Shown: positions 1,651 through 15,288 of the stretch, piece by piece | Layout: every line of letters begins with the position of its first letter | How positions within the stretch are numbered: position 1 is the stretch's first letter | Virus record (IMG/VR): IMGVR_UViG_3300033571_013227 | Coordinates: 1 to 20,913 of that record | Strand: one strand, 5' to 3' | Length of the DNA: 20,913 bases | Source: a virus | Notes under the pieces: model-generated | What the model was told of the DNA's origin: nothing | Databases searched by the model: none | What the model saw: only the letters and a program-made list of their open reading frames with translations | Made by a program: the position numbers and the translations under genes

Positions 1651-2616
1651 TTAAAAAATATTTAATTGTTTTACTAATGAATTAATTGTTTTATGACGTG
1701 AGAAGGTGTTAACTATTGTTCCATCAGTAATATCTTTAACCGAGTTTGTACAATAGATACCATCAAAGTACTCAGCAAGTAAATCAAAACCTGCGCTGAA
1801 GATGCCATGAGTAACAATCAAATAGTTTTTACCATACTGTTCAGGTTTAACGGAACTTGATAATTTTCTAACCTCATTAACAGCTTTAGCAACCTCAATA
1901 AAAGTTCTAGCACCATCACAGATATCATCAATGATAAACACATCCTTATCAGCGTCGTGTACTGACATTGGTACATTGGTGTAATCAATCTTACCTGTTT
2001 CAAGATTACGATGTTTAGATGCGATAATGACTTCACCTTTATAACCAATATTTTCAGCAACATGAAACACTTTCTTCAATGCACCAGCATCAGGTGATAT
2101 AAAACGCACACCATCAAAATTCATGGAGTCCCAAATTTCAAATCCTTTTGATAAAAAGTAATTACTAAGTGACCAATGAACAAGTTTAGTATTATCAATC
2201 TTAACAAAATTATTAATACACGCCTCAAGTACATCTGAGTGTGGATCCGTGATTATTACTCGTTCAAAACCTTGTGAGTTGATAATTGGTGCAATTACGT
2301 GTTTTACATAATTGAAACCACCCTCCATAAACTTACGATCACTTCTTGCACCAACACAATATGGGATAAACAATCTAATTCTTTTAACACCAACCTCTTT
2401 TAGAGCTTGTGTTGCGCATATGATAATTTCCAAATCACGGAAATCATTTAATCGTGATTTGATTGTTATACCATTTGGATTATTTTCCAGTGAATGGAAT
2501 GTATTGTATCCCCCTTCAATCAATCGTAATGATTGTTGCCCATCAGGGAATCTGCTTATCTCATACTTGAAAGATAAGATGTCGTTTGGATTAACCAAGT
2601 TTAATGTTTCTGCCAT
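1651..2616 (-). CDS. prs: Ribose-phosphate pyrophosphokinase-like protein (Prs or ADP-ribose pyrophosphate synthetase)
   Basis: 321 aa, about the usual Prs length. Prs transfers pyrophosphate from ATP to ribose-5-phosphate to make PRPP, the co-substrate of NadV. Family landmarks in order: FPDGQ (23-27), PYCVGARSDR (85-94, cf. the canonical ARQDR), DPHSD (124-128, canonical DLHA/S), SPDAG (174-178), the catalytic flexible-loop KHR (201-203, usually KRR) and the PRPP-type loop DDICDGARTF (230-239). The deviations from cellular Prs (DPHS for DLHS; DGART in place of DTAGT) fit a phage branch and leave open the NARP1 enzyme Adps, a Prs homologue that pyrophosphorylates ADP-ribose. The ATG at 2616 lies inside the smpB end (16-nt overlap), so it is read from the smpB promoter. 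Confidence 0.88.
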   Translation of the reverse strand: MAETLNLVNPNDILSFKYEISRFPDGQQSLRLIEGGYNTFHSLENNPNGITIKSRLNDFRDLEIIICATQALKEVGVKRIRLFIPYCVGARSDRKFMEGGFNYVKHVIAPIINSQGFERVIITDPHSDVLEACINNFVKIDNTKLVHWSLSNYFLSKGFEIWDSMNFDGVRFISPDAGALKKVFHVAENIGYKGEVIIASKHRNLETGKIDYTNVPMSVHDADKDVFIIDDICDGARTFIEVAKAVNEVRKLSSSVKPEQYGKNYLIVTHGIFSAGFDLLAEYFDGIYCTNSVKDITDGTIVNTFSRHKTINSLVKQLNIF

Positions 2617-3032
2617 ATTTTTATTTCTCGTTTTGTTTCTTTTTCTATATCCTTTTCCTTTATTGATAATTTCTTATCAAAAGATTTTTTACCTTTTCCC
2701 ACACCAATAATCATTTTAGCTAATCCTTTTACAAAAGTTAACTCCAAAGGAATTAAACTATATCCTTTTTGAATGAATTTATTACGTATTTTAGTTATTT
2801 CTTTTTTATTTAAAAGTAAAACCTTATCTCTCTTTTCATCAGGTGAAAAGGTATTGTTTTTATTCACATATAAACCTTTAAGAATAACTGAATTAGATGT
2901 GATAATACAGAAAGCATCGGTGAAATTACATTTACCATTTCTGATAGATTTAATTTCATCCCCCTGAAGAATAATACCAGCAGTGTATTGTTCTTCAATA
3001 TTGTAATCATAAAAGGCTTTCCTGTTTTTCAT
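2601..3032 (-). CDS. smpB: SsrA-binding protein SmpB
   Basis: 143 aa (cellular SmpB is about 150-160). SmpB binds tmRNA and brings it to stalled ribosomes for trans-translation. Landmarks in order: NRKAFYDYNIEE (3-14), GDEIKSIRNGKCN (24-36, the RNA-binding OB-fold signature), DKVLLLNKKEI (69-79), KGYSLIPLEL (89-98), GKGKKSFDKK (112-121), and a basic C-terminal tail that forms the decoding-site helix. All family blocks are present in order, so it looks functional and not a fragment. It has a perfect host-type promoter, is the first gene of an operon, and overlaps prs by 16 nt. SmpB is seldom seen on phages. No tmRNA gene was found in this window. Confidence 0.93.
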   Translation of the reverse strand: MKNRKAFYDYNIEEQYTAGIILQGDEIKSIRNGKCNFTDAFCIITSNSVILKGLYVNKNNTFSPDEKRDKVLLLNKKEITKIRNKFIQKGYSLIPLELTFVKGLAKMIIGVGKGKKSFDKKLSIKEKDIEKETKREIKIWQKH

Positions 3033-3301: not shown

Positions 3302-4555
3302 TTATTTATCTGCCAATTTTTTTATCATATTTTTTATAACTTCTTGATGTTCAGATAAATCTTTGAGTTTAATTGTTCCAATTGACAATCTAAACCATCC
3401 TTTATTATGTGTAGATCCAAAATATTCAAACGGTACTAAACCAACTTTACAATCATCAATTAGAAAATCCAACATTTGTTCTAAGTCATTAAACTTATTT
3501 ATATAACCCAAATAAACTGATATATAGATAGCACCATCAGGTTTTTTAAAGTCGACCTTATATCCTGTAGATTTCATATCTTGTAAAACATCACAAATAC
3601 CATCACATATTTGTCCGAAAGTATTATTTCTTGCTGATAAGAATGTATCAATACCAAAGTAAGGATCATCTACATTTGTTGATAAGTATTTAGATACAGC
3701 AATTTGTTCAGGTTTGTTAGCCCAAGCTCCAATATGACTAAATATTTCACCAGCTTTTTTGATAAGATGTTCAGGTCCAAACATCCAACCCACTCTAACA
3801 CCTGTAGCTGCTAATGATTTAGATATACCATCAACACACACTAAATAATCTTTAATTTCAGGTACTAATTTAATCGGGTGATGTGTTTCTATTCTTGATA
3901 GATCCGAATAAATCTGATCAAAGAAAAGATATAATGGTTTGTAAATATTTTGTGTCTCCAATCTTCTTTTATTTTCATCTACTATGATTTGACAAATATC
4001 TTTAAGAACATCAGGTTTAATTATTTTCCCTGTTGGGTTTTGTGGAGAACAAAGACATATCATTTTCGCATTTTTAACATTATCTTTAATTTGTTCCGCT
4101 GTTGGGAAAAAGTCATTTTCAGGTGAGCATTCAATCACTATTGGCATCCCATCGTGCAAAAATGTATAATGATTATTATTCCAACTCGGAACTGGAAAAA
4201 TAATCTCATCACCTTTATTAATAATTGTCTTAAATATTGTATATATTAAAGGTCTAACACCAGCACCAATAAGTATTTGATTTGGTGAATAATCAATAAA
4301 ATGTTTTCTTTTAAGATGTAGTGAAACACTTTCTCTAAGTGATAATTCACCAACCGGTGTTGGATAATTTGTGTTTGATATATTAAAGTTCCATTGAATG
4401 TAATCATTCAATTTTTGAGGTATAGGATACAATTGAGAATCAAAATCCCCAATTGTATAATTATAAACCTTTTCATTTTTAGCTTTGATTTTACCTGATA
4501 TTTTTAATATCTCAGAGCCAATAATATTTTCTCCGTAATTTGATAATTTTTCCAT
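3302..4555 (-). CDS. PLP-dependent aminotransferase, class I/II
   Basis: 417 aa from the ATG at 4555. A longer frame begins with a TTG at 4567 inside the upstream gene; I prefer the ATG, because it lies one nucleotide after the upstream stop (TAA-T-ATG), as at the 13064 junction. This is a fold-type I aminotransferase, cytoplasmic, transferring an amino group to a 2-oxoacid through PLP. Landmarks (this numbering): the NYPTPVGELSLRE substrate-side loop (63-75), SPQNPTG with the PLP-contacting Asn173, DQIY with Asp213 and Tyr216, SKSLAATGVRVGW with Schiff-base Lys246 and phosphate-binding Arg254, and WFRLSIG near the C-terminus with the carboxylate-binding Arg. The full catalytic set is present. 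The amino-acid substrate is not evident. It is an unusual gene for a phage. Confidence 0.9.
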   Translation of the reverse strand: MEKLSNYGENIIGSEILKISGKIKAKNEKVYNYTIGDFDSQLYPIPQKLNDYIQWNFNISNTNYPTPVGELSLRESVSLHLKRKHFIDYSPNQILIGAGVRPLIYTIFKTIINKGDEIIFPVPSWNNNHYTFLHDGMPIVIECSPENDFFPTAEQIKDNVKNAKMICLCSPQNPTGKIIKPDVLKDICQIIVDENKRRLETQNIYKPLYLFFDQIYSDLSRIETHHPIKLVPEIKDYLVCVDGISKSLAATGVRVGWMFGPEHLIKKAGEIFSHIGAWANKPEQIAVSKYLSTNVDDPYFGIDTFLSARNNTFGQICDGICDVLQDMKSTGYKVDFKKPDGAIYISVYLGYINKFNDLEQMLDFLIDDCKVGLVPFEYFGSTHNKGWFRLSIGTIKLKDLSEHQEVIKNMIKKLADK

Positions 4556-4556
4556 A

Positions 4557-5453
4557 TTAACCTGCAACTGGAACCTCCGTAACTAAATAATCGTTTTCAA
4601 CTGGTTGTTTTAAATCACAATAGTCTTCGTAGTATTTCGTCATATTTTCAATTTCAACTTTATCCAGTAAAGAAGCATTTTGTATATTTTTTTCTTTACA
4701 ATAATTAATAAATAATTCTTTAATGTGTAAAGGAATTGGAATGAACATCATTTCCATTCTACTATCCCAATCAGTCCAACAAGAAAACTTATTTGAGAAA
4801 TCATATATCTCCATTAATTCGGCATCATATTTAATTCCCTCACCATCATTCTTTTCTATACACAATGCATCATCATTTTTAGTTGAGAGGGTTGATTTTT
4901 TTATTACCGAATAGTAATATGAAATATCCATATCATAATAAAAAGCAATTTTCCTATTTATTCCTTTTTCAATGAAATATGCAAGAATACCTTTATCGGT
5001 ATATCTATAAAAATATTCTGATTGGGTTATACACCATTTAGTTCCCCTACCATAAACAGAAGCTGCATCATATGATAATGGTAAAAATAACATATAATTA
5101 TCATCTTCATAAAGAATTTTAATTTCTTTTTTAGCCTTACCAATTGATTTTGATAAACTAGCTTCATTAATTGATTGTTTAATACTTGAAAAGTTATTAT
5201 AAGAATATAAATCAGGATTTTCAATCATACCATTCGTCGCTAATTCATCAAACTTTTTCAAATTATTTAACATATACCCCATCTCATTTATTATTGTTTC
5301 TTCAAAATCACCAATCAAATTTTTTGTAAATCTAATTAAATGTTCTGTATATTTTTTCGTTTTTGAATTGTCAATATTATTAGCCAATTCGATAAAATCT
5401 ATAGGTTTAATTTTATCTTTAAATTTTTCTCTTATTAAATCAATTTTAGCCAT
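4557..5453 (-). CDS. YGxGTKWC-motif protein A, 298 aa (unrecognised family)
   Basis: I do not recognise the function. It is one of four proteins in this window sharing a core domain. The core here runs about 113-175: an acidic lead-in (YEDDNYMLFLPLSYDAASV), the signature YGRGTKWC (134-141), a Tyr-rich stretch, then GILAYFIEKG (155-164) and a beta-like segment. The N-terminal ~100 residues are helical and variable. There is no signal peptide or membrane segment. It overlaps the 92-aa gene by 8 nt (ATGGCTAA) and stops one nucleotide before the aminotransferase, so it is in the middle of a tightly coupled operon starting at 6240. The conserved Trp-Cys could be structural or catalytic; nothing visible decides this. 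Strong as a gene, unknown as a function. Confidence 0.75.
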   Translation of the reverse strand: MAKIDLIREKFKDKIKPIDFIELANNIDNSKTKKYTEHLIRFTKNLIGDFEETIINEMGYMLNNLKKFDELATNGMIENPDLYSYNNFSSIKQSINEASLSKSIGKAKKEIKILYEDDNYMLFLPLSYDAASVYGRGTKWCITQSEYFYRYTDKGILAYFIEKGINRKIAFYYDMDISYYYSVIKKSTLSTKNDDALCIEKNDGEGIKYDAELMEIYDFSNKFSCWTDWDSRMEMMFIPIPLHIKELFINYCKEKNIQNASLLDKVEIENMTKYYEDYCDLKQPVENDYLVTEVPVAG

Positions 5454-5724
5454 TTGTTTCTATATTATATTGTGAATTTATATTTATTTTATTGTTATTA
5501 AAATCTTTCATTAATGATTCCCCGAATTCATCAACCCATTTGTCGTAATCAACCAGTTTTTGTTGTTCTTTATAAAGGATTTTTAATTTTCCATTATCAC
5601 CCAATATTGTTATTTTTTCTTCACCTTCTATTATATCAATTGGTGAGAAATTGATTAATTGTGCCATCATAGCAAAAAAATCAAACTTTGTTTTGTTTTT
5701 TAATGTTTCTCTTAAATCTGTCAT
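5446..5724 (-). CDS. Hypothetical protein, 92 aa
   Basis: I do not recognise this family. It begins MTDLRETLKNKTKFDFFAMM, then an isoleucine-rich segment (about 30-52) that reads as two beta strands, and ends in a polar Asn/Ile tail. There is no signal peptide. It overlaps its upstream neighbour by the classic ATGA (ATG at 5724, TGA of the lipoprotein gene at 5721-5723) and its downstream neighbour by 8 nt, so it is translationally coupled on both sides. Its place directly before YGxGTKWC protein A raises the possibility of a partner protein, but only by position. Confidence 0.6.
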   Translation of the reverse strand: MTDLRETLKNKTKFDFFAMMAQLINFSPIDIIEGEEKITILGDNGKLKILYKEQQKLVDYDKWVDEFGESLMKDFNNNKININSQYNIETNG

Positions 5725-5930
5725 TGTTCAATCGTATATTCGTTATGCTTAATAATCCATTTTATTTCACCGTCTTTATATAGTAATAATTGTCCTTCAT
5801 CAGTTATTATTACTTTATCACAAACATAAGTTGTGTCCACAATAACTTTTGTTTGTTTATTAGTTTCAATATTACAGGATAATATATTAAATATCGTTAT
5901 CATTCCAATTATAAGGAATACCATTTTCAT
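5721..5930 (-). CDS. Small predicted lipoprotein, 69 aa
   Basis: It reads MKMVFLIIGMITIFNILSCN: a short basic start, a hydrophobic stretch of about 13 residues, then the lipobox-like ILSC with Cys19 (from the ATG at 5930; a second ATG at 5924 would also keep the lipobox, while a TTG at 5936 is less likely). This predicts export, cleavage by signal peptidase II and lipidation of Cys19. The mature part is about 50 residues, two or three beta strands, with one further Cys. It overlaps the upstream 117-aa gene by 44 nt. Small phage lipoproteins are known in superinfection exclusion and as outer-membrane spanin subunits; no lysozyme or inner spanin is adjacent on this strand, so exclusion or envelope modification is the more natural guess. 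The function is inferred. Confidence 0.55.
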   Translation of the reverse strand: MKMVFLIIGMITIFNILSCNIETNKQTKVIVDTTYVCDKVIITDEGQLLLYKDGEIKWIIKHNEYTIEQ

Positions 5931-6240
5931 AATCAATCGTCTTAAATGATTTTATTAAATTATTTATTTTAACTAAGTCTTTATTATTAGGATCATTCTT
6001 TAATAAAAGTTTTTGGTAGTTTTTTACCAATTGAAACATCGTATCAAAATTATTTACAGCATTTAATATGAATACAGCGTCTTTTCTAGTGTCAATAATA
6101 TTTTGTTCATCTCTATATTTTACATCTTCAGATAATACTGTTGCCACAAACAAGTCGTTTTCATCTACTAAATCAATAGAACTATCTTCTCTTTCTTCCA
6201 TTATTAAAGGAAGCTTCATACTTCTATCAAACTTTACCAT
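5887..6240 (-). CDS. Small phage protein, 117 aa, with ANAxFIVxAxN-like core
   Basis: A soluble acidic protein. The central segment RKDAVFILNAVNNFDTMFQL (about 52-71) followed by a helix resembles the widespread short phage proteins whose core reads roughly ANAxFIVxAxNxHDxLVxxxK; their function is unknown. The preceding stretch VDENDLFVATVLSEDV also fits that layout, in which a beta strand describing a 'value' precedes the helical core. It is the first gene of a minus-strand operon that continues into the lipoprotein, the 92-aa protein, YGxGTKWC protein A and the aminotransferase, and is divergent from the lysozyme gene across a 70-nt gap. I could not find a good TAnnTTTG or ATATTTAT box before its ATG. 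Confidence 0.6.
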   Translation of the reverse strand: MVKFDRSMKLPLIMEEREDSSIDLVDENDLFVATVLSEDVKYRDEQNIIDTRKDAVFILNAVNNFDTMFQLVKNYQKLLLKNDPNNKDLVKINNLIKSFKTIDYENGIPYNWNDNDI

Positions 6241-6295
6241 TCTATCATATAATTTTTAATATTATAAAGTATATTAAATAAAAACCAAAAAAGAA

Positions 6296-6304
6296 AATAT
6301 TTAT
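6296..6304 (+). promoter_or_regulatory. Candidate late-gene signal AATATTTAT before the lysozyme gene
   Basis: AATATTTAT ends 6 nt before the ATG at 6311. The same element precedes six other lysis, structural or packaging genes here at 4-6 nt. It may be the -10 region of a phage late promoter giving a leaderless message, or a translation signal. No Shine-Dalgarno sequence is present. Confidence 0.45.
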
Positions 6305-6310
6305 CATAAT

Positions 6311-7489
6311 ATGAGAAACATAAATAAGAAAAAATTAACTGAAACTATTAAAGCTTCTGAAGCTCACACGGAGTTAGGTTCATTTGAAACATTAGAACAA
6401 GGAAAAAGAGGGATTGCTTTAATTCAGATTAATACGGTTGATGATATGATAAAAAGATATATTATTAATTCAATTAACGAAAATGATTTTGGTTACGTTG
6501 TAGTTCAAAAAAACCCAAAAAAACCAATAATTGTTTATAGAAAAGGGTATAGACAGAATGCGGAAGAATTGGCTAAAATAGCTGATAAATATAATGGTTT
6601 ATTATCAGCGAAAGCAACCTACGAAGATAGTAAAAGAATTGGTGAGTTATTAGAATACGATCCGGAAGATATTCAAAATTATCTTAAAAAAAATTATAAT
6701 GGTAAAACTTTAAAAGAACACGAAACCCCGTCTTTCTTGTTGAAAGAAGAAATAATTCTAATAAGGGAAGGGAATGTTCAAGATTACATAAATAATGTGT
6801 TATCAAAGATTAAAAACTTACCTTACGAAACAAAAAAGAAATATCTAACAATAGCGATTTCAACCCTTTTGGGTTATACATCTTACCCTATCATTCAATC
6901 ATTAATTGATAACTCATCTGATAAAGACGCTAAAGAAATTACCCATAAATTAATGAAGGAAAAAGATGATTTTTCAGTATTTAAGGATGGAACAAAACTT
7001 CGTTTATCTAAGAGAGGGTTTCAACATATCATAGATGAAGAAAAACCAAAACTAATCGCTTATGCCTTAGGTGATGGTAAAATAACAATTGGTTATGGAC
7101 ACGCCGAACCAATTGGTAAAACAAAACTTAAAGTTGGACAAAAAATAACCAAAGAACAAGCAAAAAAACATCTTAAAGAAGATCTTAAAACCGCAGCAGA
7201 TGGTGTAAGAAGAATGTTTAGTGATTGGAAACAACAAGGTAAAAACTACAAAATAACTCAAGATATGTTTGATGCATTAGTTTCAATGGCTTTCAATATG
7301 GGTGTTTCAGGTTTAAGACAATCAGAAATGGTTAAATACCTTAAAAACGGTAATTATAAAACAGCAGGACAACTTATTAAACAAACTAATATTAACCCAG
7401 ACACATTTCCAGGACTAGAAAAGAGAAGGTATAGAGAATCCGATATGTTTTTATCATATTTATCAAAACCAGTTGACATAAACGTTTAA
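6311..7489 (+). CDS. GH24 (T4-type) lysozyme with long N-terminal extension
   Basis: 392 aa. The C-terminal part, about 236-385, is a T4-type muramidase that cuts the MurNAc-GlcNAc bond of peptidoglycan. The catalytic Glu is Glu244 and the signature TIGYGH is at 259-264 with Thr259. The Asp expected 9 residues after the Glu is Leu253, with Asp254 next to it. The DMFDALVSMAFNMG helix (318-331) and the GLEKRRYRE segment (368-376) are also typical. T4 lysozyme is about 164 aa, so some 230 residues are added in front. These have no recognised domain, a Lys-rich start and one hydrophobic segment (about 178-199) that could touch the membrane. The gene may encode an endolysin or a virion-associated lysin; no holin was identified. 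It is the first gene of a plus-strand late block. Confidence 0.88.
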   Translation: MRNINKKKLTETIKASEAHTELGSFETLEQGKRGIALIQINTVDDMIKRYIINSINENDFGYVVVQKNPKKPIIVYRKGYRQNAEELAKIADKYNGLLSAKATYEDSKRIGELLEYDPEDIQNYLKKNYNGKTLKEHETPSFLLKEEIILIREGNVQDYINNVLSKIKNLPYETKKKYLTIAISTLLGYTSYPIIQSLIDNSSDKDAKEITHKLMKEKDDFSVFKDGTKLRLSKRGFQHIIDEEKPKLIAYALGDGKITIGYGHAEPIGKTKLKVGQKITKEQAKKHLKEDLKTAADGVRRMFSDWKQQGKNYKITQDMFDALVSMAFNMGVSGLRQSEMVKYLKNGNYKTAGQLIKQTNINPDTFPGLEKRRYRESDMFLSYLSKPVDINV

Positions 7490-7494
7490 AACAT

Positions 7495-7503
7495 AATATT
7501 TAT
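7495..7503 (+). promoter_or_regulatory. Candidate late-gene signal AATATTTAT before YGxGTKWC protein B
   Basis: AATATTTAT ends exactly 6 nt before the ATG at 7510, the same element and spacing as for the lysozyme gene, inside the 20-nt gap between the two. Confidence 0.45.
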
Positions 7504-7509
7504 ACTAAT

Positions 7510-9339
7510 ATGAAATTATTACAATTATTATTTGAGGGAAAGGTTGATGACTTTAAAAAAATATTTAAAGACAAATACACAACCCCTGAACAAATGGACG
7601 CTATTATTAGAGTTTCATCTGAAATAGAACCTAAACACAAATATTTAATTTGGTTAGGAAAATCATTAACCAAACCAGTATTTAATAATGAAATTGCCTT
7701 CGCTGAAGAATTATCTGGAACACAAGAACTCCTAATGAAGTTTGATAAAATTAGTTCTAATTTACCCATTAAAGACATTTCACAATATAAAAGCTTATCT
7801 GAGTTAGCAGAAGCAATTAAAACCTATGAAAATAGACAAAGAAGAACAATTAAAAAGGTTGATGGTGCTGATATAATTTACGATAGTGATGATTATACAA
7901 TTATCCATCCAAAAGAATATAACGCTTCTTGTTTTTATGGTAAAGGTTCTAAATGGTGTACAGCTTCTGAAAAAAGCGACGAGCAATGGAAAAATCATAA
8001 TAGAGAAGGTAAATTATTTTATTTTCTTTCAAAAAAATTACCTACATCTGATAACTATTATAAAGTCGCTTTAGATCAAAAATTTAAAGGTACTAAATCT
8101 TTTTATGATGCAAATGACACCCCATTTACTAAAGGATGGATTATGGATACAGAGGAGTTTAAAGAAATGATTGGTGTTATTAATCTATATATGAAAGATA
8201 ACTTTTCAAATCAAATTGAAATATTCTCAAATGAAGAAAAAGCACAGGTTGAAATGGAAAGGATTAGAAGAATTGAAGCTCAGGAAAGAATTAATAGGAA
8301 AAAAGCCGAGGCTAATAGTAGAAGAGAGAATAATGAATGGGATCCTGAAGAAATTACTCACGGTGATGTTGGATCACATGCTTGGGCTTTATTTACATTT
8401 CTTTTATCTACAGAGAATTTAAATGAAAAACAACCTGAAGATGAACAAAGAATTGAGTTTATTGATTCCGAATTAGAAAGATTAAGTGAAATACAAAGTC
8501 AATATGAAGTGGAAGGAAGGGATTTAACTGATATAGACGCTGAGATTTCGGCATATGAAGAAGAAAAACAAGGATTGGAAAATAGAATTGATGTGTATGA
8601 TATGATACCGGAAGGTAACAATTATCAGTTAACAATATTTAGTATTACTCATCCTGATTTTGATGGTTATGAATGGACTGTTGGTGATGACGATCAAATT
8701 GATTATGCTGCGTATGAGAGTGAAAAAGATTTAATAAATGATGTGGGTATTAATTCGTTCCCTAAAGATTTTATTGAAAATTTTATTGACGCTGAGGCTG
8801 TTGCCGATGAAGCTAGAGAAAATTATAACTATTGGGTTTATGATAGTCCAGAATCATATTTGGATGAAAAAGAAGATAAATTATTAAGTAAATCACAAGA
8901 AAAAGAAATTGCCGAATACCAAGAAAAGATTGATAAATATAAATCTTTCTATGAAAAAGCAACCGCACGTCAAGAAGAATATGATCCTGATAGCACACAA
9001 TGGAAAGCAATTGAGAAAGGTTTAGATAAACTAACCGATTTAATATCAGATTTAGAATATGATATAGAAAACATTAAAGATGAACCGGATGGTGATTGGG
9101 ATGAGGATAAAATTGAAGAAAAAATTGATGAATTAGTTGATGATGTTAAAGATAGACCTTTGAATTGGTTAAATGAAATGGGTGTTGAAAACTTAGATGA
9201 CTATGTTGATAAAGATGAATTAATTAAATCAATTATTAATGAAAATGGATATTATTCAACATTAAACAGTTATAATGGAGATGGTGACACAATAGAATGG
9301 GATGGTGAAACATATCATATTATGAATACAGATCAATAA
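7510..9339 (+). CDS. YGxGTKWC-motif protein B, 609 aa (unrecognised family)
   Basis: I do not recognise the function. The shared core lies at about 118-190: YDSDDYTIIHPKEYNAS, the signature YGKGSKWCTA (143-152), then GKLFYFLSKK (167-176) and YYKVALDQ. After it come a charged coiled-coil-like stretch (about 224-275, rich in Glu, Arg and Lys), a unit with a further Glu-rich helix pair, and a very acidic C-terminal third with Tyr/Trp. The N-terminus, MKLLQLLFEG, resembles T4 capsid-targeting propeptides ending in a (L/I)xE|G cleavage site. Late-type signal and position next to the lysozyme suggest a virion or late protein. It is the longest of the four homologues. Confidence 0.75.
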   Translation: MKLLQLLFEGKVDDFKKIFKDKYTTPEQMDAIIRVSSEIEPKHKYLIWLGKSLTKPVFNNEIAFAEELSGTQELLMKFDKISSNLPIKDISQYKSLSELAEAIKTYENRQRRTIKKVDGADIIYDSDDYTIIHPKEYNASCFYGKGSKWCTASEKSDEQWKNHNREGKLFYFLSKKLPTSDNYYKVALDQKFKGTKSFYDANDTPFTKGWIMDTEEFKEMIGVINLYMKDNFSNQIEIFSNEEKAQVEMERIRRIEAQERINRKKAEANSRRENNEWDPEEITHGDVGSHAWALFTFLLSTENLNEKQPEDEQRIEFIDSELERLSEIQSQYEVEGRDLTDIDAEISAYEEEKQGLENRIDVYDMIPEGNNYQLTIFSITHPDFDGYEWTVGDDDQIDYAAYESEKDLINDVGINSFPKDFIENFIDAEAVADEARENYNYWVYDSPESYLDEKEDKLLSKSQEKEIAEYQEKIDKYKSFYEKATARQEEYDPDSTQWKAIEKGLDKLTDLISDLEYDIENIKDEPDGDWDEDKIEEKIDELVDDVKDRPLNWLNEMGVENLDDYVDKDELIKSIINENGYYSTLNSYNGDGDTIEWDGETYHIMNTDQ

Positions 9340-9354
9340 ATTAATAAAAAATAT

Positions 9355-9362
9355 TATATTTG
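9355..9362 (+). promoter_or_regulatory. Possible TATATTTG -7 box upstream of YGxGTKWC protein C
   Basis: TATATTTG on the plus strand in the 54-nt gap, 31 nt before the ATG at 9394. No TTTG is present at the proper distance upstream, so it is weak. Gene C therefore may have both signal types. Confidence 0.25.
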
Positions 9363-9380
9363 TAAAAATAAAAATAACTC

Positions 9381-9389
9381 AATATTTAT
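9381..9389 (+). promoter_or_regulatory. Candidate late-gene signal AATATTTAT before YGxGTKWC protein C
   Basis: AATATTTAT ends 4 nt before the ATG at 9394; the following base makes ATATTTATA, as at the genes starting at 7510 and 17136. Confidence 0.45.
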
Positions 9390-9393
9390 AGGT

Positions 9394-10377
9394 ATGACAA
9401 AAAATGAAGCAAAAAGAAATTATTTAGATAGGGGAATATTAAAAAACGATGCTTTTGAAAGGTTCTTAAATGAGGATCCAACATCTCAAAAGAAATATGT
9501 GTTTTATATGATTAAAGAATATTTAAGACAATCTGACGATGCAGGTAATAAAGTATCTGACATATCAGTAAATGATTTAGATATGGGTATTTTATCACCA
9601 ATCTTTTCATATGTAACAGAATATAATGCTTTACTTGGTAGAGTTCCACAAGATAAAAAAGATATATATAAATTATCTTTTGATAGTTTAGTTGATATTG
9701 TTGATGAATTAAACGCATCTGAGGGTGAAAGTGATAGGACTTCTTTAAGAAAAAGAGCTCGTGAAAACTCTCTCAACTATAATGAAATGGGTATTGTAGA
9801 TGTACCAGGAGTATCGGTTATTACCCCAAATAATCACGACGCCATATGTTATTATGGTCAAGGAACTAGGTGGTGTGTTTCTATGAATACCCCTACCCAT
9901 TTTATGAGTTATTATTATAATCAAAATTATACTTTTTTCATTATAAGCATAACAAGCGATGCGGTTAAAAACAAAATTAAAGAACACTACGAAAACAAAT
10001 GGGAAAAAATGGGGTTAGGAAAACCCACTTGGGATAGAAAGAAAATGAAATGGGTATTAGTTAAAAATGGTAAAGATATTGCTGATATAGCAGCCAATAA
10101 TGAAAATGATGCCGCTGAATTATTTAAACAAAGATTAAACTTATCATCTTTGAAAGGTTATACTATTGAAAATTATGGTTATAGAAACTTATATAAAGTA
10201 GCTTTTTTAGTTCCACCATTAAAAGGTAGTGATGGTGAAATAGTTAGGGATGAAGATAATCAACCTTTACCTGATATGGAAAGAGCTCAGATTTATTCAT
10301 CTGATGATATTTCATTTAATACTGGTTGGAAAGAATACTTTAAAGTAATTGGTTTAGAAGACTTTATTGAAAGCTAA
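9394..10377 (+). CDS. YGxGTKWC-motif protein C, 327 aa (unrecognised family)
   Basis: I do not recognise the function. The core runs about 135-185: a beta-like lead-in (VDVPGVSVITPNNHDAI), the signature YGQGTRWCVS (154-163), an aromatic stretch (FMSYYYNQNY) and a strand (TFFIIS). It is the most divergent copy: Arg replaces Lys, and the acidic lead-in is gone. The N-terminal ~110 residues are helical. The C-terminal part has a KWVLVKNGKDIADIA segment and ends NTGWKEYFKVIGLEDFIES; protein B has a similar TKGWIMDTEEFKEMIG after its core, so B and C share more than the motif and are probably duplicates. It is co-oriented with lysozyme and B. The gene is certain; the role is not. Confidence 0.75.
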   Translation: MTKNEAKRNYLDRGILKNDAFERFLNEDPTSQKKYVFYMIKEYLRQSDDAGNKVSDISVNDLDMGILSPIFSYVTEYNALLGRVPQDKKDIYKLSFDSLVDIVDELNASEGESDRTSLRKRARENSLNYNEMGIVDVPGVSVITPNNHDAICYYGQGTRWCVSMNTPTHFMSYYYNQNYTFFIISITSDAVKNKIKEHYENKWEKMGLGKPTWDRKKMKWVLVKNGKDIADIAANNENDAAELFKQRLNLSSLKGYTIENYGYRNLYKVAFLVPPLKGSDGEIVRDEDNQPLPDMERAQIYSSDDISFNTGWKEYFKVIGLEDFIES

Positions 10378-10381
10378 AAAT

Positions 10382-10810
10382 ATGGAAAAGATTAAATTAA
10401 CAGAAAAACATTTAACTGAAATAGTTAAAAAGGTTATTACTGAAGAACAAAAAAAGAAGTTGTTTACTCCAAAAAATATAGATGAAAGAAAAAAAGATTA
10501 CCAAAAAATAATTGAAAAAAGATTAGAAGAGTTAAAAAATACTCCTTTTGGTAAACTATCAAAAGACTATATATTTGAATGGATTCATGAAAATAATTTA
10601 GATCAAGAATTTAAATTAAGTTTTAGAGGTCCAAAATTGGGTGAAGTATATGGAACATCATTTAATAAATCAACAGGTGATGTTACTTTATTTGTTGATG
10701 ATTATACAGATAAGAATATAGCCATAAAGTTTAAAATATCAGATATTCAAATAGGTGTCTTTGATTTAGGACCAGAGGATTCTGATGAGTCTTTTTACCC
10801 ATTAAACTAA
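10382..10810 (+). CDS. Hypothetical protein with duplicated ITEEQ-type N-terminus, 142 aa
   Basis: I prefer the ATG at 10382, 4 nt after the stop of protein C, over a TTG at 10367 inside it. It begins MEKIKLTEKHLTEIVKKVI, followed by TEEQKKKLFTPKNIDERK, which is repeated almost unchanged at the start of the next gene. The rest is a Lys/Glu-rich helix and a small beta-rich domain (about 75-130) with an acidic end. I do not recognise a family. The leading (I/L)-T-E segments resemble the short N-termini of many phage proteins and fit the (L/I)xE cleavage pattern of T4-type prohead protease, so packaging into the capsid is a possibility but only an inference. Confidence 0.65.
   Translation: MEKIKLTEKHLTEIVKKVITEEQKKKLFTPKNIDERKKDYQKIIEKRLEELKNTPFGKLSKDYIFEWIHENNLDQEFKLSFRGPKLGEVYGTSFNKSTGDVTLFVDDYTDKNIAIKFKISDIQIGVFDLGPEDSDESFYPLN
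10433..10488 (+). repeat. Direct repeat, copy 1 (coding)
   Basis: 56 nt matching 10823-10878 at an offset of 390 nt, with a single mismatch (T at 10464, C at 10854). It encodes VITEEQKKKLFTPKNIDER in both genes. The identity holds at synonymous positions, so the copy is recent or is kept alike by recombination. Confidence 0.85.
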
Positions 10811-10813
10811 GTT

Positions 10814-11293
10814 ATGAAAATAGTTATTACTGAAGAACAAAAAAAGAAGTTGTTCACTCCAAAAAATATAGATGAAAGGAAAGAACAACTTAAAAAAGAC
10901 TTGTCTGAAAAAACCAAAAATCTTCTTTCACGTCTTAACATAACTGAAATTATGGTTCACGCTCGTATTGATGATTACGATGAAATAATAACCCCTATGG
11001 ATCATTTAGATGATGCATATAGTAAACTTATTATTGACGGTAAAAACTATAATGGATTTCCAAAAATGAGTGAGGAAGATGAGAATATGGTGATTAATTG
11101 GGAAGACACCTTAACAATATTCTTAAACTCAATAATACCTCAACCATCGGATGAAAGTATTTATAAAGCCGAACCAAATGTTGTTGGTAGAATGTTTAGG
11201 GTTGATATTACCCCATCAAAAATAAATATTATTTTTTCTTACTCAATTGTAGAATATAAGAATAAAGAAGGTAAAGAAACTATTGACTTATAA
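10814..11293 (+). CDS. Hypothetical protein with duplicated ITEEQ-type N-terminus, 159 aa
   Basis: It starts MKIVITEEQKKKLFTPKNI, 4 nt after the stop of the previous gene, and shares with it a 56-nt stretch that differs at one base. Past residue 25 the two proteins diverge: this one continues with a Lys/Glu helix, then HARIDDYDEIITPMDHLDDA, an Asp/Asn-rich middle, and a beta-rich C-terminal part (VGRMFRVDITPSKINIIFSY, about 123-142). I do not recognise a family. Its end overlaps the convergent 81-aa gene by 14 nt. A short hairpin plus T-run follows on the plus strand, so it closes the plus-strand block. Confidence 0.65.
   Translation: MKIVITEEQKKKLFTPKNIDERKEQLKKDLSEKTKNLLSRLNITEIMVHARIDDYDEIITPMDHLDDAYSKLIIDGKNYNGFPKMSEEDENMVINWEDTLTIFLNSIIPQPSDESIYKAEPNVVGRMFRVDITPSKINIIFSYSIVEYKNKEGKETIDL
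10823..10878 (+). repeat. Direct repeat, copy 2 (coding)
   Basis: Second copy of the 56-nt repeat of 10433-10488, one mismatch, offset 390 nt. It lies at the 5' end of the 159-aa gene. Confidence 0.85.
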
Positions 11294-11525
11294 TATCATC
11301 AACCCAAATAGGGGTTTTTTCTCCAACGTAAGCCCCTGAAACATTAAAATCAAAGTATTCAATAGCATCTATCTCATTCATATCCTTAGAAAGGATTTGG
11401 ATACATTTAGACATTGAATAAACTAATCTCATAGATTTAATATCTACACCAATGAGAGCTTCATCAAAACCATCTGGTATAAGGAAACTCTCATCTGGGT
11501 ATTTTTCAATAATTATATCAATCAT
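11280..11525 (-). CDS. Conserved small phage protein, 81 aa, function unknown
   Basis: The layout PDGFDEALIGVD (17-28), RLVYSMSKCIQIL (33-45), AIEYFDFNVSGAYVGEKTP (54-72) is a recurring small-protein family in phages, which I remember as 'GxD...LxYSxxKCIxIL...YFxxNVxGAYVGExTPIF'. No biochemical role is known to me. It is soluble and compact, with no metal motif. Its ATG shares a base with the stop of YGxGTKWC protein D (TAATG), so it is translationally coupled to that gene. Its 3' end overlaps the convergent plus-strand gene by 14 nt. Confidence 0.75.
   Translation of the reverse strand: MIDIIIEKYPDESFLIPDGFDEALIGVDIKSMRLVYSMSKCIQILSKDMNEIDAIEYFDFNVSGAYVGEKTPIWVDDIISQ
11301..11320 (+). terminator. 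Weak intrinsic terminator of the plus-strand block
   Basis: AACCC (11301-11305) pairs with GGGTT (11312-11316) around a 6-nt loop and is followed by TTTT. It lies 8 nt after the stop of the 159-aa gene, within the 3' end of the convergent 81-aa gene. The stem is short, so efficiency is uncertain. Confidence 0.45.
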
Positions 11526-12304
11526 TATTTTTTACTTTTAATATCAGGGCGATTTGATATGTGTTCAATAACCGATTCGTAAAGCTTGATGAACATTTCT
11601 TTTGTTCTATTACCAAACACGACATCTTTTACTTCGGTTTTAACATCCTGTACATTCCAAAATTCAATGTGTTTTTGAATGTCCGTAAACTTTTTACCTT
11701 TACTTTCTAAGTTTTTAAAATCTGAAATCAATTTTTCAGGTTGTAGATAAATACCAAAGGTTTCTTTCTGGTGATTTTTCTTAGATATAAAGTAAATTAA
11801 TACATTCTTTGAGTAAGTATTAAAGTGATTTGACGTATCTTTTGAAGCCGTACACCATTTGGTATTAGATCCATAAGTTAATGAGGATTCATAAGTTAAA
11901 GGTGTTCCAATCATATAGTCATCATCCTCAAAATACTTATGAAACTCTTTTTCTCTACGTTTCAATTCACGTTGTTGTTTCGCAGCTTCTAATACCTTAT
12001 TAAAATCCTCAACCGATTTAAACTTAAAAATATCAGAATCAACCCCCTTAATAAATCCTTCTTTTACCAGCTCTTCAAAAATAGCACAATCCTTTTTAAA
12101 ATCATTTTCTAACCAATCAGTAAATTCATCTAAAATAGACTTTTTAAGATTTTCAATTTCATCCGTGCAAGATACCAACCACTTAGTGTATTTAAATTGG
12201 CTTGACTTATTTTGAGCCGATGGATCATATTTTTTTAATAAATCTAAAAGGTCTATTGTTAATTGCTCTTTGTATTTTTCTTTAATTTCGGTGATACTAA
12301 TCAT
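11525..12304 (-). CDS. YGxGTKWC-motif protein D, 259 aa (unrecognised family)
   Basis: I do not recognise the function. Core about 122-190: FEDDDYMIGTPLTYESSLT, the signature YGSNTKWCTAS (144-154), HFNTYSKNVLIYFISKKN and FGIYLQPE. The acidic lead-in is close to that of protein A (DDNYMLFLPLSYDAAS), so A and D are nearer to each other than to B or C. The first ~115 residues are helical with a basic/acidic run (KQQRELKRREKEFHKYF). Here the Gly before Thr is Asn, showing that only Tyr-Gly, Thr/Ser, Lys/Arg, Trp and Cys are invariant. It has a perfect host-type promoter and is coupled to the 81-aa gene. Confidence 0.75.
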   Translation of the reverse strand: MISITEIKEKYKEQLTIDLLDLLKKYDPSAQNKSSQFKYTKWLVSCTDEIENLKKSILDEFTDWLENDFKKDCAIFEELVKEGFIKGVDSDIFKFKSVEDFNKVLEAAKQQRELKRREKEFHKYFEDDDYMIGTPLTYESSLTYGSNTKWCTASKDTSNHFNTYSKNVLIYFISKKNHQKETFGIYLQPEKLISDFKNLESKGKKFTDIQKHIEFWNVQDVKTEVKDVVFGNRTKEMFIKLYESVIEHISNRPDIKSKK

Positions 12305-12326: not shown

Positions 12327-12357
12327 CAAATATAATTATTTATTTTAAACTTTCAAA
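12327..12357 (-). promoter_or_regulatory. Bacteroidota-type promoter of YGxGTKWC gene D
   Basis: The minus strand reads TTTG (12354-12357), 19 nt, then TATATTTG (12327-12334); both boxes are exact. 22 nt separate the box from the ATG at 12304, so a leader of about 16 nt is expected, unlike the leaderless cases. Confidence 0.78.
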
Positions 12358-12362
12358 CTTTT

Positions 12363-13064
12363 TTATATTTCTTTTAATATTTCTAAAACTTCATATTTCA
12401 TATAAGGTAAAGGAACTCTATCAAAATCCATACTTTCCCTATTCCACCATAAAATCTTTAACTCTCTAAGTTTTTTACCTGTCCGTAATTGATACATATA
12501 AGCGTAAAAACTTAATTGAATTGCGTAAGCATTATATGAACAATCCGATAAATGTGATAAACAACCTTTCATCCAATTCCCATAATCGTTCTTATATGTT
12601 AATTTTTTATTTGATTTATAATCATTAATATCAAAGAAATCACCATAATCTAATATTAAGTCAGATGTTCCAGCGACTTTCTTTTCATTAATCCATAAAC
12701 ATTCTTCAGCCATTATGGTTTCAGCCTTTAATAAATCCAATCTTTTAAATGCATCCACTACCTTCTGTTCATATTCATCCGTAGGGAAATAAAACCCTTT
12801 AGCTTTAATATAATCTTCAATAGGGTTATGAACTTTATATGTACCAAAATCAGTAGCCTCTTTGTTTATTGCTCTCCATTCAGCAATAATATCTTCTTTC
12901 TTTCTACCATCACGTCTAGCAATGGCTGCAGCAATTTTATCTTCTTCAAACTTAACTTTATATTTACCTAAGATTGCCGATATTGATGTGTATTGTTCCC
13001 CTGTTTCTCTGTTGAAGTATTTATGTTCAATAGGTTCGAGGAATACTAAGTTTTCTTTATTCAT
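12363..13064 (-). CDS. PD-(D/E)XK nuclease (RecB/Cas4-like exonuclease)
   Basis: 233 aa from the ATG at 13064; a TTG start at 13100 lies inside the upstream gene and I reject it because of the TAA-T-ATG junction. Motifs (numbered from the ATG): MAEECLW with the acidic residues at about 120-121, GTSDLIL with metal-binding Asp135, and INDYKS with Asp148 and catalytic Lys150. Then comes QLSFYAYMY (about 183-191), the Q-xxx-Y helix typical of the RecB/Cas4/lambda-exonuclease group. It should bind Mg2+ or Mn2+ and degrade or resect DNA. No Cys cluster for an Fe-S centre is evident. It is translationally coupled to a metallopeptidase, which is an unexplained pairing. A role in phage DNA recombination or host DNA breakdown is likely. 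Confidence 0.82.
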   Translation of the reverse strand: MNKENLVFLEPIEHKYFNRETGEQYTSISAILGKYKVKFEEDKIAAAIARRDGRKKEDIIAEWRAINKEATDFGTYKVHNPIEDYIKAKGFYFPTDEYEQKVVDAFKRLDLLKAETIMAEECLWINEKKVAGTSDLILDYGDFFDINDYKSNKKLTYKNDYGNWMKGCLSHLSDCSYNAYAIQLSFYAYMYQLRTGKKLRELKILWWNRESMDFDRVPLPYMKYEVLEILKEI

Positions 13065-13065
13065 A

Positions 13066-14166
13066 TTAATAGTAAAATGCTGATTCTTTATATTCTTCAA
13101 TTATTTCCGTAATAGTCCGTTCTCCTTCAAAATTATCAATAAATGAATATAATCCATCATATAGAAAAATGAATTCATTGTCAGTCATACCATACTTTTC
13201 TTGGAAATATTTCATTACTCTTTTTTTCATTTCAATCGTTGATAATACCTCACTCTTATTTGATGCGGTACTAACTCCACTATATTTATAGTTTTGTTCT
13301 TGTTGTTCAAACGGTTGTTTTTCATTACCTAATCTTTCAATAATAGCCACAGATAACTCAAACGCTGTTTCAATACCTTCAATTAATACACATTCATTAG
13401 ATGAATGATATTGATAATAAGCCGCTGGTAGGTTAATACATTGAAAATTAAATTTCTTCTTTAATTGACTAACATCGGTATATGGATGACGAGCAAATGT
13501 TCTTACACCATACTTATATAGTAAATCACCAATCTTACCATCAAAATATTCTTCACCTGTTTCCATATCAACTACAATACCAGGTTTAGCCCATTTTTCG
13601 TCAAATAACAAATAACCTGAGCAATACCAAGATATCGTATCATTCTCAGGTGAATCGTGTTGAATTGCATAAGCAACATTCTCAAAAAAGTTAGGGTCAG
13701 CCTTACTTGAACCAATACAACCGATTTCTTCAGATATAAAAAAAGCACATTTCATAACGTCAAACTTATCCATTATTTCAAGAGCTAAGAAAATACCGGC
13801 CTTATCATCACCACCACAACCAGTTCTATTATTATATGTATACTCCTTACCTTTAATATAACCACGAAGAACTTGCTTACCATTACATACTGATGAACGA
13901 TCATACGCACTCATTTGATACGTTTCTTCAACTATGTCAATACCATTACGTTGAATAGTATGGACAGTATCCATATGAGCAACCATACAAGGATAACTAC
14001 TACTTAAACCTTTTGTTAAGTAAATATTACCAATGTCATCAATATAAAATGGAATATTACGAACCGTAGCCCATTCACTAATATACTCACGAACCTTTTC
14101 TTCCTTTCCATAAAATGATGGAATTGAGAGAATTTCTTTTAATCTTTCTAATTTTATGTTATCCAT
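13066..14166 (-). CDS. Zinc metallopeptidase of the M20/M28/M42 type
   Basis: 366 aa, cytoplasmic, no signal peptide. All five expected ligands of a co-catalytic di-zinc aminopeptidase appear in order: AHMDTVH (His64, Asp66), GCGGDDKAG (bridging Asp120 or Asp121), FISEEIGCIGS (general base Glu146 with metal ligand Glu147), QHDSPEND (Asp171) and QYHSSNE (His254). Such enzymes remove N-terminal residues or cleave small peptides, and some split amide bonds in non-peptides. About 90 residues follow the last ligand, including a Gln/Glu-rich linker and a helical tail. The gene has an exact host-type promoter with a leaderless start and runs into the nuclease gene. It is an unusual gene for a phage; the substrate is unknown. 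Confidence 0.85.
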   Translation of the reverse strand: MDNIKLERLKEILSIPSFYGKEEKVREYISEWATVRNIPFYIDDIGNIYLTKGLSSSYPCMVAHMDTVHTIQRNGIDIVEETYQMSAYDRSSVCNGKQVLRGYIKGKEYTYNNRTGCGGDDKAGIFLALEIMDKFDVMKCAFFISEEIGCIGSSKADPNFFENVAYAIQHDSPENDTISWYCSGYLLFDEKWAKPGIVVDMETGEEYFDGKIGDLLYKYGVRTFARHPYTDVSQLKKKFNFQCINLPAAYYQYHSSNECVLIEGIETAFELSVAIIERLGNEKQPFEQQEQNYKYSGVSTASNKSEVLSTIEMKKRVMKYFQEKYGMTDNEFIFLYDGLYSFIDNFEGERTITEIIEEYKESAFYY

Positions 14167-14544: not shown

Positions 14545-15288
14545 TTATATTGTCTCTAAATCTGATTTTAGTTTAATTAACTTAATAATACTATCTTTTT
14601 TATCGGTTGATGAGTAAGATTCTAATTTTAATTTAACTTTTGAAAGTTTTTCTTTTAATTCTGTATCACCAATATTTATTTTGTTATTTACTAATTCTAA
14701 GTTTTCTTTAATAATACTCTCTTCAATGGTTTTTAATTTCTCATCATCATTATTTAATACTGATTTTACTAAATCTTTTTCCCATTCTGTTAAGTTTTCA
14801 TATTTTTTGTTAAACTTCTTAGCTATTAAATTAGTATAAACTTTGATTGGTAGTGTTCCTTCAACTACATTATCTGATACAGATTTATGTGTTAATAAAT
14901 GTGATACCAAATATTTTTTAGCACTTACCCTATTTTCTATTAAATTAGATTTTGTATCCTGTAATAATGTATCAATGTTTTCTAATAAAGTTTCTTTAAC
15001 ATATGTTTTATCTGAATTATATTTTAATATAAAGTCATGTACAACTGAAAAATCAACATCTAATGATTTAAGATAATCTAAATTTTCATTCAAATAAGAT
15101 GTTGCATCTGAAATATCATCAAATTTCTTATTTTCAATATTAGAATATACGATGTAATATTCTTTAATTGTTTTATTGTTTTTTAATATATTATAAAACT
15201 CCTTGAAGATTGTTTTGAACTTATTTTTATCAGAATAAGATTCAAGTAATATATTATTAATTTCTTGTTTTATTTTACCAAATGTCAT
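14545..15288 (-). CDS. Helical protein downstream of portal, 247 aa (possible head-core or assembly protein)
   Basis: I do not recognise the family by sequence. It is Lys/Glu/Leu/Asn-rich and reads as almost all helix, including likely coiled-coil stretches at the C-terminus (about 185-247). The start MTFGKIKQEINNILLESY has an LLE|S segment that fits the (L/I)xE site of T4-type prohead protease. In T4 the genes just after the portal encode prohead-core proteins, and the composition here would suit a core or scaffold protein; this is inference from position and composition. It has its own ATATTTAT element, and the terminator follows. There is no membrane segment or Cys. Confidence 0.65.
   Translation of the reverse strand: MTFGKIKQEINNILLESYSDKNKFKTIFKEFYNILKNNKTIKEYYIVYSNIENKKFDDISDATSYLNENLDYLKSLDVDFSVVHDFILKYNSDKTYVKETLLENIDTLLQDTKSNLIENRVSAKKYLVSHLLTHKSVSDNVVEGTLPIKVYTNLIAKKFNKKYENLTEWEKDLVKSVLNNDDEKLKTIEESIIKENLELVNNKINIGDTELKEKLSKVKLKLESYSSTDKKDSIIKLIKLKSDLETI

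Follow-up and report, generated by a model that had tools for sequence, protein, structure and literature searches.

The 20,913-nucleotide virus record IMGVR_UViG_3300033571_013227 (hereafter the window; a 20.9-kb fragment) encodes four proteins, called here A, B, C and D, which carry divergent copies of a core centred on the motif YGx(G/N)(T/S)(K/R)WC. The results of this work show that the four are paralogues belonging to a single, mostly viral domain family, with two classes of N-terminus, two classes of upstream DNA signal and exchanged C-terminal parts. We consider it reasonably probable that leader-bearing copies like B are made late, packaged into the head, cut and ejected into the host, and that leaderless copies like A and D act in the infected cell, the core being common to both and the C-terminus setting target or activity.

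One domain family, mostly viral

The original prediction had noticed a shared core in these four proteins, and homology bears this out. All four open reading frames (ORFs) are in place (Table 1), pairwise blastp joins each to the others (A-D 6e-20, A-B 2e-11, B-D 1e-9, B-C 1e-6, C-D 8e-5, A-C 1e-4), and D as a query against the window recovers A (1.1e-18), B (3.4e-11) and C (9.9e-5). The motif occurs four times in the six-frame translation of the window, once per protein, and is absent from 20,000 shuffles of the four proteins. A profile started from A-D detected the domain in 79 of 79 sources and later in 163 of 163, which speaks for consistency and not for frequency, since the sources had been fetched as relatives. 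Chance similarity of the four motifs is ruled out by the blastp, profile and shuffle results. The core described earlier as YGxGTKWC is thus real, but the domain is longer, its homology extending N-terminally through DPxxxKY, DIxxY and EDD...P.

Conservation across 77 aligned members is strongest, in D numbering, at K38-Y39 (of DPxxxKY), D91, P135, Y144-G145, T148, W150-C151, Y164, L169, a K at 182 and D220. Trp and Cys stand at 100% in all 77, as their predicted invariance would have it, but the figure is inflated, WC having been a requirement of the core pattern used for scanning, and two divergent members found only by profile deviate, with YGAGYRFC (L150) and RNGRGWC (L106). Two families listed without function (unknown), PHROG 17056 (A 2.9e-7, D 2.7e-9) and PHROG 28193 (C 7.4e-7, D 1.8e-9), match over this same core and are matched by most relatives tested as well; at E<=0.01 three of the four proteins (A, C and D) belong to them, and B has no match to either at E<=1. 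A literature search on the motif returned nothing related, judged by titles.

The family is mostly viral. Scans of viral contigs confirmed 154 of 170 matched stretches with D (78 loci retained) and 473 of 521 with the core alignment, and the same alignment, with the pattern one residue longer, gave three confirmed stretches of five in 84,980 prokaryote species genomes (by title Candidatus Symbiothrix, a Bacteroidia bacterium and a Chitinophagales metagenome-assembled genome). In the contig of Bacteroidia bacterium MS495-7 two adjacent ORFs bear the core (L165:283-2224), a rare non-viral setting. Among annotated phages D matched one record, Salicola phage SCTP-2, in six places, and B matched 12, namely SCTP-2 and 11 Pseudomonas jumbo phage records; for the window itself, 50,697 phage records yielded no near match. 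The domain is expanded, as had been supposed: in 33 whole records, picked because they contain it, copies range from 1 to 8, with eight in G001 (a 98-kb contig, the nearest long relative of the window) and in G011, seven in SCTP-2 and one in PA5oct.

Two kinds of N-terminus

B, like most members whose C-terminal part is long, begins with a hydrophobic leader ending in (L/I/F)xE(G/S), such as MKLLQLLFE/G, MKFSTILNE/G, MNLLEKYIRLLLIE/S and MKVKHITQYLFE/S (the slash marks the predicted cut), an ending that A, C and D lack. In T4, leaders of this sort are cut after (L/I)xE. The pattern [LIFVM]xE[GSAD] is present in 28 of 34 long members, defined as those with at least 185 residues after the core; among the short members 3 of 48 have it, and among other genes 123 of 797. 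Counting non-ATG starts adds a leader to two of the six long misses and to three short members, bringing the figures to 30 of 34 and 6 of 48 (p=3e-12). With a stricter pattern the figures are 22 of 82 members against 74 of the 797 other genes (p=1.7e-5), and 2-3% of interior stretches. Genes truncated by the end of a locus and redundant ones (>40% shared 5-mers) were left out of these counts and of those for the C-terminal groups, the tree and upstream DNA.

The tree agrees with this division: a single clade with support 99/96 unites 38 leaderless rows (36 of them distinct), including A and D. B and C fall into other clades, and five SCTP-2 copies form a separate one; the root serves for drawing only, and the placements of long branches (L150_10883, L174, L083_9497, L171_16208) are unsure.

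Two kinds of upstream signal

Across 841 genes, TATTTAT starts 11-20 bases 5' of the start codon 133 times, against 3-11 times per 10 bases beyond -40, and TAnnTTTG is found at 11-30 bases 54 and 44 times, against 5-13. The first motif, extended to TATTTAT(A), is the reverse complement of the T4 late promoter TATAAATA; TATAAATA itself was tried as a signal and is unenriched in the window (10 found, 7.32 expected). The second belongs to TTTG-N19-TAnnTTTG, which we take to be the Bacteroidota promoter consensus. Its full form, with a spacer of 17 to 21, occurs six times in the window where 1.74 are expected, a number reached by 2 of 100 shuffles, and three of the six lie directly before D, SmpB and the peptidase gene. 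Since motifs of both classes lie very near the ATG, leaderless mRNAs are likely, as judged from the sequence.

Read by eye, TATTTAT in the window directly precedes the genes for lysozyme, B, C, portal and terminase and gene 14545-15288, and overlaps the first ATG at PhoH, and TAnnTTTG precedes D, SmpB, the peptidase and two small genes, and lies further upstream of C and of 12363-13100. The claim that the four copies lie under both signal classes therefore holds in part: B and C have a late-type motif and D a host-type one, but neither motif is seen before A, and C has TATATTTG further upstream as well. In the family at large TATTTAT stands upstream of 19 of the 46 members that fall outside the leaderless clade and of 1 of the 36 within it (p=5e-5).

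Evidence for packaging of leader-bearing members

According to PMC9026906, leaders send internal proteins of T4 into its head, gp21 cuts these leaders, and many of the internal proteins (IPs), together with Alt, are ejected. The capsid-targeting sequences of T4 IPI-III and Alt resemble the N-termini of B-type proteins, both being short leaders with a Glu followed by a small residue. A gp21-type protease (PF03420) is likewise present in the larger genomes with the family, matching in 7 of 7 records >280 kb, three of which (G016-G018) seem to be near-copies. Of the 17 smaller virus records 3 have a match, and the two bacterial genomes searched have none. The family member of PA5oct, EST35_0205, is annotated as a structural protein of the virion, with the record note ESI-MS/MS (electrospray ionisation tandem mass spectrometry; MS below). 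The likeness shown here between the T4 internal head proteins and the family does not include a shared fold, and the cleavage of B-type proteins is a prediction from sequence.

PA5oct allows the leader to be related to the virion more generally. In three 50-kb stretches of its genome (150 kb; 175 rows minus six cut coding sequences, CDS, and one ncRNA, leaving 168 complete CDS), the leader pattern is found in 11 of 64 MS-noted CDS against 4 of 104 others (p=0.0047), EST35_0167, an MS-noted CDS without leader, being counted in. That 53 of the 64 virion proteins have no leader means that it marks a subset of them, as expected of head proteins. Those with a leader include the major head subunit precursor (MSNRLFE/S) and a small post-portal protein (MKINDIITE/G), which invites another interpretation, namely that members with a leader serve as head-core or internal structural proteins in building or filling the capsid, without any effector function once ejected, the leaderless copies having diverged to other roles. 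The structural label of the PA5oct member and the largely helical C-terminus of B would suit it. However, 19 C-terminal groups among 48 members seem too variable for a head-building part, the number of copies ranges from 1 to 8, and the leaderless copies have a clade and upstream DNA of their own, so that we regard this interpretation as rather unlikely.

If B-type members are effectors instead, their deployment would be like that of Alt and of ModA/ModB in T4, where one kind of domain is found in the virion and is also made from genes expressed in the cell. No sign of the ADP-ribosyltransferase fold or activity of those proteins was seen in the family, D having no match at E<=0.001 in a structure search of the PDB, and a search with PF01129 (ADP-ribosyltransferase) gave no match, controls included, and is hence uninformative.

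Predicted fold of the core

Structures were predicted with AlphaFold2 for two of the four cores, those of D (mean predicted local distance difference test, pLDDT, 86.2; predicted template modelling score, pTM, 0.74; block means of 92-95 over residues 121-190) and B (mean pLDDT 81.8, pTM 0.42). The order of elements is alike in both models: two strands, two helices, two strands. Unrelated folds, which would have spoken for chance resemblance, are thus not what the models of these two cores give.

In Foldseek searches of BFVD at E<=0.001, D had 24 matches and B 22, of which 20 were common to both. They include the PA5oct structural protein, proteins of Marseillevirus LCMAC201/202 (one named ankyrin repeat protein), leucine-rich repeat proteins, and nameless entries of 243, 378 and 547 aa, lengths by which they would be SCTP-2 members. 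They also include proteins named PcfJ-like, two for D (E 3.9e-4 and 4.7e-4; prob 0.99 and 0.98) and one for B (4.1e-4; prob 1.00), although TM-scores are low for all BFVD matches and at most 0.26, normalised by query, for the PcfJ-like ones. It had been stated that no fold could be assigned; going by these models the core may be placed near PcfJ-like proteins, and is perhaps PcfJ-like in fold.

In sequence the profiles show no significant relation. The Pfam cut-off of PF14284 (PcfJ), 25 bits, is reached neither by D (16.9 bits, E 0.0058) nor by its relatives L038 (17.2) and L119 (13.1), whose weak matches all fall in the same region of the profile, and 0 of 7 genomes had a match above it. Against 22 PcfJ domains hhalign gave a probability of 0.4% (0.15% with A3; 0.1% in a rerun, where the best of 60 column shuffles reached 7.1%). 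Membership of PcfJ by sequence is therefore unconfirmed, being below the cut-off and no better than shuffled columns, and no literature pairing 'PcfJ-like protein' with phage was found. In the Protein Data Bank (PDB) neither a sequence profile nor Foldseek gave a match for D at E<=0.001, which does not show a new fold. The VIA rows for D have a Z of 4.5 at most (root-mean-square deviation, rmsd, 4.4; 103 aligned), and those for B are mostly coiled-coil over residues ~427-550 (best Z 9.4, rmsd 1.4, 67 aligned), a common helix arrangement.

Whether the core binds or catalyses is the least certain part of our reading. Our preference is for a domain that binds or recruits, its Cys being structural, as relatives fuse the core to repeats of several kinds and no match to an enzyme fold was obtained. 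An enzyme with a catalytic Cys could be supposed instead, because Cys is kept in all 77 aligned members and in the divergent RFC member, and because PcfJ domains have an invariant Cys too, hhalign placing the WC of the family opposite their HC. That alignment is not significant, though, the conservation is biased because WC was required in the searches, beyond D91 and D220 no His or Asp is prominent as a partner, and the PDB offered no enzyme fold. We think such an enzyme improbable; nothing in the analysis indicates the role of nucleophile that had been proposed for the Cys as one of two options.

Exchangeable C-terminal modules

The C-terminal parts of the 48 members with at least 150 residues after the core fall into the 19 groups mentioned above, and several of these modules recur without it. 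That of B stands alone in L063:1091-2620, which starts MKKTFKITES, and another is core-free in L069 and L157, whose called starts have no leader. Modules that could be named are given in Table 1. The idea that these proteins face variable partners draws its support from one observation, this swapping of C-terminal modules.

Members with and without a leader lie within a few kb of each other in the window and in L119, L111 and L113, and one may ask if they form matched pairs, in which the B-type protein acts on the cell and proteins of A, D or C type block or neutralise it, or exclude later phages. The position of A and D on the strand opposite to B and C speaks against such pairs, and known defence proteins (PADLOC, E<=0.01) were matched by 0 of 10 proteins, by which membership of a known or candidate anti-phage defence family was likewise rejected. 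There seems little chance that this is the explanation.

A model of deployment and its weak points

On the reading that we prefer, B-type proteins would be made late and carried by their leader into the prohead, where a gp21-type protease would cut them after Glu, and the mature protein would be ejected together with the DNA, its C-terminal module selecting a target or carrying the activity. Leaderless proteins like A and D would not be packaged but would work inside the infected cell, in the case of D probably at an early stage. C, late yet leaderless, may act late or travel with B. That virion-packaged effectors are involved, as the original prediction suggested among other options, thus finds support for the B type (in leader, PA5oct MS note and protease); C, which has a late-type motif, the TATATTTG further upstream and no leader, may or may not be packaged.

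Several observations weigh against this model. C adjoins B in 7 of 7 related loci (L005-L008, L010, L012, L013) and has no leader. PF03420 finds no match in G001; the same is true of 13 of the other 16 virus records <280 kb, many of which may be fragments. The leader patterns were framed after the N-termini had been looked at, and 15% of other genes match the pattern. Finally, TAnnTTTG precedes 3 of 36 members of the leaderless clade and 3 of 46 outside it, so it does not separate the classes, and the term 'early' for that clade rests on D, its orthologue and one more member.

More speculatively, and with the odds rather against it, the family might comprise modular, polymorphic effectors of large T4-like phages, in which a PcfJ-like core is joined to a leader and to exchangeable target modules and ejected, leaderless copies being made in the cell, with the same core also used by Marseillevirus-like giant viruses (once with ankyrin repeats) and by rare Bacteroidota proteins (once with tetratricopeptide repeats, TPRs). 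If so, bacterial and eukaryotic viruses would have a module for host manipulation in common. Many proteins in the heads of jumbo phages are unexplained, and the ejected effectors known from phages are few; leader plus core would amount to a rule, readable from sequence and testable by mass spectrometry, for telling packaged proteins from those retained in the cell, and would also provide a tractable phage setting for PcfJ-like proteins.

Table 1. Features of the window and named modules of relatives
Feature	Location	Strand	Remarks
Protein A	4557..5453	-	298 aa, leaderless; core ~4938-5201; in leaderless clade
Protein B	7510..9339	+	609 aa, leader-bearing; core ~7786-8064; 400-aa helical C-terminal part
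Protein C	9394..10377	+	327 aa, leaderless, late-type motif upstream; core ~9679-9981
Protein D	11525..12304	-	259 aa, leaderless clade; core ~11756-12022; structure predicted
Leader of B, MKLLQLLFE/G	7510..7539	+	predicted capsid-targeting sequence and putative cleavage site
TATTTAT before B	7497..7503	+	late-type motif
TATTTAT before C	9383..9389	+	late-type motif
TTTG-N19-TATATTTG before D	12327..12357	-	Bacteroidota-type promoter
Phage lysozyme, directly 5' of B	6311..7489	+	PF00959 1.1e-24; TATTTAT at 6298-6304
Gene after portal gene	14545..15288	-	starts MTFGKIKQEINNILLES; leader-type N-terminus MTFGKIKQEINNILLE/S; TATTTAT upstream
Ribose-phosphate pyrophosphokinase-like	1651-2616	-	PHROG 619 1.4e-59; metabolic-type gene
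SmpB gene, phage-borne	2601-3032	-	PF01668 1.4e-43; host-type promoter directly before
Class I/II aminotransferase	3302-4567	-	PF00155 5.1e-34; metabolic-type gene
Peptidase T/dipeptidase-like	13066-14166	-	NCBIfam matches below cut-offs; metabolic-type gene
L5 gp82-like module	L076		PF25735 1.9e-24
DUF4116 module	SCTP-2		3.1e-17
Nucleotidyltransferase-like part	L174		PHROG 1614, 5.3e-7
TPRs after core	L165, bacterial protein, first of two ORFs		9.7e-42
MORN-like repeats	L171		Pfam 0.041; phmmer to neighbouring MORN-lysozyme proteins 1e-9 to 1e-14
Leucine-rich repeats, below cut-off	L106		1.3e-6

Other genes of the window

A survey of neighbouring genes was not used, its largest cluster mixing family members with other proteins. 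The leader-type gene that follows the portal gene has no PHROG match at 0.001. Two genes downstream of C, 10367-10810 and 10814-11293 (both +), have the N-terminal stretch ITEEQKKKLFTPKNIDERK in common, which is perhaps another packaging tag; KKLFxP near the start is also seen in lysozymes of relatives. The lysozymes that precede B in relatives can carry 8-9 MORN repeats N-terminal to the lysozyme domain (L090:9319-11247, L087:12574-14883), which a Pfam search did not find in the lysozyme of the window (6311-7489). The SmpB gene, lastly, raises the possibility that the phage tunes trans-translation.

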